From contig CANLAE010000006.1 of NCBI GenBank assembly GCA_947488765.1, positions 62,001 through 126,000 of the forward strand: a stretch of 64,000 nt of DNA. The letters are read 5' to 3'. Each line of letters opens with the position of its first letter. Within the stretch, counting starts at the first letter, position 1. The position numbers were made by a program, and so were the translations under genes. The notes beneath the pieces were generated by a model. It was not told the DNA's origin and did no database searches. It was given only the letters and a program-made list of their open reading frames with translations. Source of the stretch: Chitinophagaceae bacterium. Its GTDB lineage: Bacteria > Bacteroidota > Bacteroidia > Chitinophagales > Chitinophagaceae. This document shows, piece by piece, positions 25,773-59,012 of the stretch.

Positions 25773-25826
25773 CAGCTCCATTGTTTATGCTTTTTTTAGC
25801 ACATAAACAATGGAGCTGCTTTTTTT
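25773..25826 (+). terminator. Intrinsic terminator with 17-bp perfect stem overlapping the 3' end of the opposing methyltransferase CDS
   Basis: CAGCTCCATTGTTTATG (25773-25789) / CATAAACAATGGAGCTG (25802-25818) then CTTTTTTTT. Confidence 0.85.
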
Positions 25827-26684
25827 TGCATTCATTAAAGATTGTAATGTTGTTATTGCACCGATAAAAAAAGCTTTTAGCAAATTGTTTTTTCCGTTTT
25901 TGTATTGCTCGCTCAACATTGCCACATAAAAACTATCAAACCACATTGGCTTGAAAGCCTTTACAGCAAAGCCTTTGGCAGCAGCCAACAACTCCATACT
26001 TTTAGGTGAAAAGTGATACAAATGTCTTGGCACATCGTACGCAGCCCAATATTGCTGATAGCTTTTTGCGTCATAACAAGTGTAATTAGGAACAGCAATA
26101 AAAACAGTGCCATTCTGTTTTAATATGCCGCTGAATTTTTCTAAGTACCCATGCAAATCATGTACATGTTCCAACACATGCCACATGGTAATCGCATCAA
26201 ATTGATTCGATGGCAAATCATAAATATTTTCAGAAGATTGTAATTGCAATTGGTATTTATTCAACGCAATTTTTCTTGCATTTTCATCGGGTTCTAAAGC
26301 GGTAATTTTCCAACCTGCAAGTTGCATCGTATGCGCAAATGCACCCGTGCCTGCGCCAATATCCAATAAACTTCCTTTCTGCAATCCTGTAAATTTTTGT
26401 ATTAAACTGCACTTGCCTTTTAATGTATATCGTCTAACAACATGGTACAACCGATTCACCAAACCTTCCTGCGTATCGGAATGAGAAACATACGCATCAG
26501 ATTGATAGTAAGGTGCTATTGCTGCTGCATTTGGAACATCTTGCGTAAACCGAAAACTACACGTACCACACTCCCACACGGCAAATATTTCATTGCTTAC
26601 GGTATAATCTTTTGCTGTTAAAACTTCTTTGATTGAAGTGCTTTTACAAGCAGGGCAACTGTTATAATGTATGTGTGTTTCCAT
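25785..26684 (-). CDS. Class I SAM-dependent methyltransferase with N-terminal zinc-ribbon-like CxxC motifs
   Basis: CPACKS, WECGTCSFRF, SLLDIGAGTGAFAHTM, ITMWHVLEHVHD. Confidence 0.88.
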   Translation of the reverse strand: METHIHYNSCPACKSTSIKEVLTAKDYTVSNEIFAVWECGTCSFRFTQDVPNAAAIAPYYQSDAYVSHSDTQEGLVNRLYHVVRRYTLKGKCSLIQKFTGLQKGSLLDIGAGTGAFAHTMQLAGWKITALEPDENARKIALNKYQLQLQSSENIYDLPSNQFDAITMWHVLEHVHDLHGYLEKFSGILKQNGTVFIAVPNYTCYDAKSYQQYWAAYDVPRHLYHFSPKSMELLAAAKGFAVKAFKPMWFDSFYVAMLSEQYKNGKNNLLKAFFIGAITTLQSLMNAKKSSSIVYVLKKA

Positions 26685-26760
26685 GAATAGCAAATAAACA
26701 AAACTTTGCGATATAAAGAATATTTATGTACCCAACTTACCAAATCTTTGTGCAGCTTTA

Positions 26761-26965
26761 GTTGCGTCGCACACTTGTAATGTTGAATGTATTTTCAGCA
26801 TGCAACAAAATAAATTGTACGATGCACCTTTTTTTTCTCGCAGATAACACCGATCACACAAAAGATATTAATCAAAAAATATTTGGTATAAATTTTAATT
26901 ACACTTGAAATGAATTGAATAAAAAAAGGTCACTATTGATATGCAGTACAAGTGTGCGACGCAAC
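26761..26965. repeat. Intergenic element bounded by 19-bp perfect inverted repeats of the TGTGCGACGCAAC family
   Basis: GTTGCGTCGCACACTTGTA (26761-26779) and TACAAGTGTGCGACGCAAC (26947-26965). Confidence 0.85.
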
Positions 26966-26986
26966 GGAAGTAACATATTTATTCTA

Positions 26987-27982
26987 CTATTCACTCCAAA
27001 AATAATGCAACTCCTTAGCAAAATCCATGTAAGGAAATGTTTCTTGCAGTTGTTTGGTTTTAATAAAATAAGACTCCAGGAATTTTTTGTGTTGTTGCGA
27101 AGTTGGGTTGAAAGCCTTGTGGTTAAAGGCTAAATTGATAGCAGCAATTTCTTCCATGAGTTGTTTGGTATCTTGACTCATGCAAGCATTCACAAATTTT
27201 TCCCAAACATATTGCGTTGCATGGTAATTGGGATGCACCAAATCTTCTGCAAAAAAACGATAATCTCTTAAATCATCAATCACCAATTCGTAAGCAGGGA
27301 AATAATACAACTTTGGTAATTGTTCAATCAAATGATGTACAGCAGAAATCAAAACCGCTTTGCTTCTGTTGTTGTCAATCACGCCTTCACGCAAATGCCT
27401 AACCGGACTGATTGTAAAAATAACTTTGATGTTTGGGTTTAAAGCGCCTAGCCTGTCGAGCATTGTTCCTAACACAGTAATCACTTGCCCAAACTCCATC
27501 AAACGCCTGTTAAACCAATCTGCCGGAGCCTTGTGGTTATTGGCTGCCACGGTTCCAACCTTTGCATTACTAGCATTTTCAGTAAGTGTATAAATCCATG
27601 CAGAACCTAAAGTGACCATGAGATAGTCGGCATTTTTGATGTACTCATGAGCTTCTTTTGTGGAAGTATTTATTTTCTGTAAAGCATCTTCAATCGATAA
27701 TCCGGAAAAACGGCTATGGTGTTGCCAACTATGCCATGCTTCATTATGTTGAAATAAATCTGTGGTATCGTATTGTTTGTTCTCTACAATATTGATGATT
27801 GTTTCTGCAACACTCACTGGATTAAACACAATGCCATTGGGGTTTTCAAGCACTTTGAATTTATGTTTCTTTAATTTCTCACCAATATTTTCTGTAAAGC
27901 AACTACCCACCAATAATATATTGTGCACATGGTTAATTGGTTCTGCCAATGACTTAATATCAAACTCGTAATGAAACTTCAT
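26987..27982 (-). CDS. GSCFA domain-containing protein
   Basis: LLVGSCFTENIGEKL, GIVFNPVSVAETI, VTLGSAWIY, FTISPVRHLREG, YELVIDDLRDYRFFAEDLVHPN. Confidence 0.92.
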   Translation of the reverse strand: MKFHYEFDIKSLAEPINHVHNILLVGSCFTENIGEKLKKHKFKVLENPNGIVFNPVSVAETIINIVENKQYDTTDLFQHNEAWHSWQHHSRFSGLSIEDALQKINTSTKEAHEYIKNADYLMVTLGSAWIYTLTENASNAKVGTVAANNHKAPADWFNRRLMEFGQVITVLGTMLDRLGALNPNIKVIFTISPVRHLREGVIDNNRSKAVLISAVHHLIEQLPKLYYFPAYELVIDDLRDYRFFAEDLVHPNYHATQYVWEKFVNACMSQDTKQLMEEIAAINLAFNHKAFNPTSQQHKKFLESYFIKTKQLQETFPYMDFAKELHYFWSE

Positions 27983-40800: not shown

Positions 40801-40860
40801 TGCTGAATAACGTTATTTTGTAGATGTGTGCGACGCTACAAAAGCTACATGAATGATTTG
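40801..40860 (+). repeat. Dispersed repeat copy B (core TGTGCGACGCTAC at 40827-40839)
   Basis: Matches the TGTGCGACGCAAC core with one mismatch; flanks resemble the reverse complement of the 26761 copy. Confidence 0.65.
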
Positions 40861-58770: not shown

Positions 58771-58901
58771 ATAAATTGTATTTTTTATTTTTTATCGAGC
58801 ATTTGAATCTTTTCTCAACACCTATTGTGTCACACCCTTATACTGTAACAAGTACTTCAGCAATTCTTTGATGATGCTTCATTTGTATTCAAAAGCTGAA
58901 A

Positions 58902-58914
58902 TGTGCGACGCAAC
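58902..58914 (+). repeat. Dispersed repeat copy C (core TGTGCGACGCAAC)
   Basis: Exact 13-mer shared with both 26761-26965 arms. Confidence 0.75.
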
Positions 58915-59012
58915 AACAGTTTGGATTTTTTACAACTGTTATTGCATTAATTATTTTCTTAGGGCTTTCAAACAAAATACCAAACCATATTTTGCTGACA
59001 GGATGACAAAAA

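Follow-up and report, generated by a model that had tools for sequence, protein, structure and literature searches.

A dispersed, polar intergenic element with a selectively conserved core in Chitinophagaceae

A facing pair of elements between two genes

The window, by which we mean the whole 64,000-nucleotide stretch of a Chitinophagaceae contig analyzed here, contains a gap between two minus-strand genes, namely those for a SAM-methyltransferase (25785-26693, with its ATG start at 26684) and a GSCFA-family protein (27982-26987). Within this gap, the 19-bp sequence GTTGCGTCGCACACTTGTA (26761-26779) is matched by its exact reverse complement at 26947-26965, with 167 bp between them; together with their flanks, the arms of this inverted repeat reach 27 nt with 89% complementarity. 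A first-pass annotation had reported the perfect 19-bp repeat, its setting between two minus-strand genes and the lack of an ORF of size inside the 205-bp region, all of which we recovered at exactly those coordinates. The repeat is far beyond chance: allowing up to three mismatches, the window yields 3 matches to the 19-mer and 100 shuffles yield 0. We found that the 205-bp inverted repeat is constituted by two facing copies of a longer, polar intergenic element of ~83 bp (Table 1), with the first copy turning its T-run end toward the methyltransferase start codon, which is ~80 bp away from its core. Seven other readable, more distant congeners lack the pair at this site, where their surroundings are too diverged to define an empty site. 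In the window, matches to the arms without a core are no more frequent than in the null.

Table 1. Element copies and their parts in the window
Feature	Position	Strand	Remarks
Element copy 1 (T-run box, left arm, core, right arm)	26721..26802	+	Boundaries from the 336-copy profile (-43..+38 around core)
Core of copy 1, GTTGCGTCGCACACTTGTA	26761..26779	+	Identical in the sister genome G005
Spacer between the facing copies	26803..26923	.	No ORF; diverged between the window's genome (G000) and G005
Element copy 2	26924..27005	-	T-run overlaps the last GSCFA codons (stop 26987-26989)
Core of copy 2, facing copy 1	26947..26965	-	Core kept in G005
Degenerate solo copy, core GTAGCGTCGCACACATCTA, left arm recognizable	40821..40839 (core 40824-40836)	-	In a 107-bp gap between two + strand genes; core intact in G005
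Second facing pair, upstream of htpG (start 58770)	58814..58924	.	More degenerate than the 26761-26965 pair
Variant core TTGTGTCACACNCTT of the htpG pair	core start 58827	+	13-nt core kept in G005 except free base N9
Variant core GTTGCGTCGCACATTTCAG of the htpG pair	core start 58911	-	13-nt core kept in G005 except free base N9

An information profile built from 336 copies places the element at -43 to +38 around the core and resolves the following parts: a T-run at about -42 to -36, a C/G-rich box at -31 to -27, a C at -8, the core at -2 to +16 with a free base at +9 (N9), and a YCARC box at about +31 to +35. The 16-base polar core, TTGCGTCGCACNCTTGTAC, is flanked by a left and a right arm, which are similar as direct repeats offset by 43 bp. 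Both arms come in recurring variants, with the left and right variants of a copy being nearly independent of each other (correlation 0.08). Such discrete variants look like descent by copying, and a simple binding site leaves them unexplained. In some genomes the right arm runs into a longer common tail, GAGCTTTTACCGAAGTCTCCCAGCAACGGCGG or one containing CGAAGCGTAGATTGAAG (L118, L130, L132, L203 and others). In the first core of the htpG pair, two symmetric changes preserve the odd palindrome TGYG-T-CRCA; palindromic covariation from TGCG/CGCA to TGTG/CACA was rejected as it is seen at one site only.

Distribution, placement and conservation of the core

The first-pass annotation had made its reading depend on there being further copies in the genome, and these are plentiful, so that the objection it foresaw fails: the window's genome has 77 exact and 15 one-mismatch copies of GCGTCGCACNCTT, as against one control match, and the 18-mer TTGCGTCGCACACTTGTA occurs 74 times at up to three mismatches, as against 0 for the reversed control. 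Counts of GCGTCGCACNCTTG among 61 relatives range from 0 to 379 within Chitinophagaceae, a family of soil and water bacteria in which many genomes are at zero, and the 24 genomes of other families have none; the density of copies is ~30-95 per Mb. Among the exact matches listed, the named records are mostly from Chitinophagaceae or Chitinophagales (for example Limnovirga, Segetibacter, Hydrotalea, Pinibacter, Paracnuella and Ferruginibacter, with Limnovirga soli, Hydrotalea sandarakina and Segetibacter aerophilus as cultured species that carry the motif), and the remaining ones are MAGs labeled merely as Bacteroidota/Bacteroidetes or Sphingobacteriales. In a closed genome (G014), copies occur in mixed orientations and the sampled GC skew is too weak to place the origin and terminus; the 1.5-2.5 Mb stretch of its chromosome (G014:C1) has about twice the copy density of the rest.

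Based on simple ORF calls, ~95% of the copies are intergenic. Across 289 copies, the flanking genes are in all four configurations, namely 81 (> >), 59 (> <), 50 (< >) and 99 (< <), and we recovered no enrichment of any neighboring gene family. Stop codons are frequently positioned right at the boundary of the T-run, which is equally strong beside a gene start or a gene end, whatever the direction of the upstream gene. In one pair of orthologous copies (L002 and L155), the element occupies the beginning of an ORF, with the core encoding part of an apparent signal peptide (MILPLRRTLVRSVLLFSFF), an arrangement conserved in another genome.

The comparison with the sister genome G005, which shows 95% amino acid identity in the adjacent GSCFA protein and has 73 exact and 13 one-off cores, reveals how the parts of the element evolve. 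When paired on both flanks, 78 of 91 copies in the window's genome find their counterpart sites in the sister, as do 78 of its 86 copies in the opposite direction; hence, there has been little gain or loss between the two. Over the 78 orthologous pairs, which were selected so that neither member has more than one core mismatch, the 12 fixed positions of the core show 14 differences in 936 (1.5%), as against 13-14% in the arms, 14% at N9 and 7% in the T-run (Fisher p ~7e-37 for core vs arms, 1.0 for N9 vs arms and 3e-6 for T-run vs arms). Substitution at N9 proceeds at the neutral rate, and the T-run changes half as fast. The core is intact in 64 of the 78 pairs (binomial p 3e-18) and, when all unpaired copies are treated as losses, in 64 of 91 as against 16% expected (p 4e-30). 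Given that the core diverges at 1.5% against ~14% in both the arms and N9, it is the 16-base core itself that is under purifying selection. This conservation is similar across all four flanking-gene configurations. A coding peptide repeat, LRRTLV, was rejected: the third-codon positions 3, 6 and 12 are unchanged in 60 orthologous pairs while N9 is free, and the core is therefore not coding.

Retention of position also extends to more distant, few-copy congeners, wherein about half of the 30 copies read adjoin the same gene as in the window's genome, with the side retained and the gene orientation mostly unchanged. From the starts of their translated sequences, we take these shared neighbors, which are housekeeping genes, to be secA, fusA, odhB, carB, metG, groES-groEL, nuoF and ftsW-murG; some of these sites are found again in other contigs of the family.

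Mobile, RNA-level and uptake-signal alternatives

In bacteria, a dispersed repeat is commonly interpreted as a parasite or as a hairpin structure. The first-pass annotation had suggested a MITE-like or REP/BIME-like element, with a RAYT as the possible mobilizing enzyme, or else a large RNA or cruciform. The REP, BIME and REPIN sequences associated with RAYTs include the GTAG and CGTC superfamilies (PMC3733652), with the TnpA-REP subclasses (PMC6006769), and the CGTC REPs lack a dedicated transposase, a feature shared with the present element (PMC3733652, PMC6006769). Like them, the present element is short, high-copy and intergenic, occurs as singlets and close opposite-orientation doublets and lies near gene ends, often hard against stop codons; together with the swing in copy number between genera from 0 to ~380 and the shared arm families, this favors a non-autonomous REP/REPIN-like repeat, spread by an unseen, perhaps lost, transposase and serving no present role. 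We nevertheless regard such an origin-without-function as unlikely. In contrast to the REPs, the units are of ~83 bp and their core is polar and invariant; the purifying selection is confined to that core, and the difference in rate between core and arms contradicts the lack of a present role; the near-complete conservation of position between the sister genomes also argues against this explanation. While the dispersed intergenic distribution of singlets and facing doublets bears out the REP/BIME-like proposal in part, the structure is not that of a REP, since a single copy is neither palindromic nor hairpin-forming. Nor is it a CGTC-tagged REP, as the CGTC lies inside the core and no stem follows it. 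A search for the Y1 transposase (PF01797) returned no match in the sister genome or in G033, a genome with 160+ copies. The only Y1 gene of the window's genome, of the IS200-like/RAYT type (G000:C13:48572, L068:1426-1974), is flanked on both sides (L068 1110-1190 and 1976-2055) by a different repeat with the hairpins CGGACACAGTCCG and CCGCAATAGCGG; on these grounds mobilization by a RAYT was rejected. The MITE-like proposal likewise does not survive: most copies are solo, the arms and interiors of pairs are unrelated, little gain or loss is detectable between the sisters and the core is under purifying selection. Finally, a 19-bp inverted repeat around ~170 bp between genes resembles an invertible promoter with recombinase sites, as in Bacteroides phase variation, an explanation that we find scarcely credible given the same unrelated arms and interiors, the identical orientation of the spacer of the window pair in both sister genomes and the predominance of solo copies (~four fifths, with 43-44 close pairs among 456 collected copies).

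As to structure, the window pair, when taken as a single DNA strand, does fold into a long hairpin (z -3.3) because it is an inverted repeat; the solo copies cannot do so. In 150 sampled single copies the mean MFE z against shuffles is -0.24 to +0.39 and pair covariation is absent, and no Rfam match at the gathering score was found in the window pair region; accordingly, an RNA family or hairpin was rejected. The element could still act at the RNA level when reversed, as a part of mRNA 5′ leaders with an A-run before the start codon and the core reading GUACAAGNGUGCGACGCAAC, thereby controlling the translation or stability of housekeeping mRNAs. Consistent with this, a gene start is on the T-run side in 60 of 89 intergenic copies in the window's genome and in 12 of 17 same-side neighbor matches with distant congeners, wherein the core is 41-101 bp from the ATG, and a TAnnTTTG promoter box is found upstream of some cores. 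However, such boxes may precede or follow the core, other genera show gene starts about as often as stops on the T-run side, antisense (> >) and convergent copies are about as well conserved, and RNA structure and covariation are wanting, all of which renders this explanation improbable. A promoter or leader role was itself rejected on account of an inconsistent promoter-box metaprofile. The 5′-of-gene enrichment in the window's genus counts against the recognition-site reading proposed below, in that it leaves room for a leader or promoter role there, and, with some copies in probable leaders, a part-time regulatory effect is possible in that genus. We consider it very improbable that the element serves natural transformation as a DNA uptake sequence and owes its retention to biased uptake. 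It does share with the uptake sequences of Pasteurellaceae and Neisseriaceae (PMC2346458) a polar conserved core, many copies in both orientations and close facing pairs, and some copies are near core genes. Against this, the copies are almost never inside genes, and no T2SSE/PilB/PilT ATPase (PF00437) above the cut-off was detected in the motif-rich genomes G000, G005, G012, G014, G033 and G034. Moreover, at its low density per Mb the element is about ten or more times sparser than uptake sequences.

A candidate recognition site for a host protein

Hence, we propose, with a probability of roughly 55%, that the element is an ancient, vertically inherited recognition site for a putative sequence-specific host protein. 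As selection acts on a nucleotide word, rather than on a peptide, a fold or an orientation relative to transcription, the simplest agent would be a protein reading double-stranded DNA; both this protein and the reading of the core as DNA instead of RNA are what we infer from the pattern of conservation. The putative protein might bind the odd palindrome TGCG-T-CGCA, perhaps as a dimer, and contact CTTGTAC and the T-run in addition. Its role would most likely be in chromosome organization or the marking of gene boundaries, as opposed to the transcription of any one gene. The element may have once spread by copying, whereas today it would be inherited vertically and retained for its core. That many members of the family have zero copies is odd for an important chromosomal site and counts against the recognition-site reading.

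SBS, NBS, matS and parS, the sites respectively of SlmA, Noc, MatP and ParB, are short palindromes, with tens of dispersed DNA sites under selection. The present element is comparable to them in having tens of dispersed sites kept by selection and differs from them in its 83-bp modular context and in that its cognate protein is putative. We found no prior description of the element in the literature searched, which comprised openly accessible papers, and we assign it to no existing family. More tentatively, and at rather less than even odds, the element could represent an undescribed chromosome-organizing or boundary system of Chitinophagaceae, in which the putative protein reads the 16-nt polar word at 80-400 intergenic sites and joins facing ones, the sites having first multiplied as a repeat before selection came to retain them. 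A repeat family that forms no hairpins and is not visibly mobile over ~14% neutral divergence, with a 16-nt word nearly fixed at ~80 orthologous sites, offers a testable case of repeats serving as host recognition sites, and the invariant core word is an ideal bait for the protein that reads it.

The proposed joint holding of two facing sites by this putative protein draws on the arrangement of close copies. Among distinct pairs less than 300 bp apart, 43 of 44 are facing, mostly at spacings of 100-137 bp, and the first 100 copies listed for the closed genome G014 include 8 close pairs, every one of them facing; this regularity points to an interaction between two bound sites. A point against the proposal is that helical phasing of the spacings is weak (R 0.30 for a period of 10.5 bp) and not significant over the periods tried. 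In three pairs of G014 (L360, L362 and L363), the spacers carry another common repeat, a hairpin of the CGGAGCCG type, with GTATTGTCTGCTCGTC present in two of the three, an arrangement that looks like insertion of other repeats between the facing elements.
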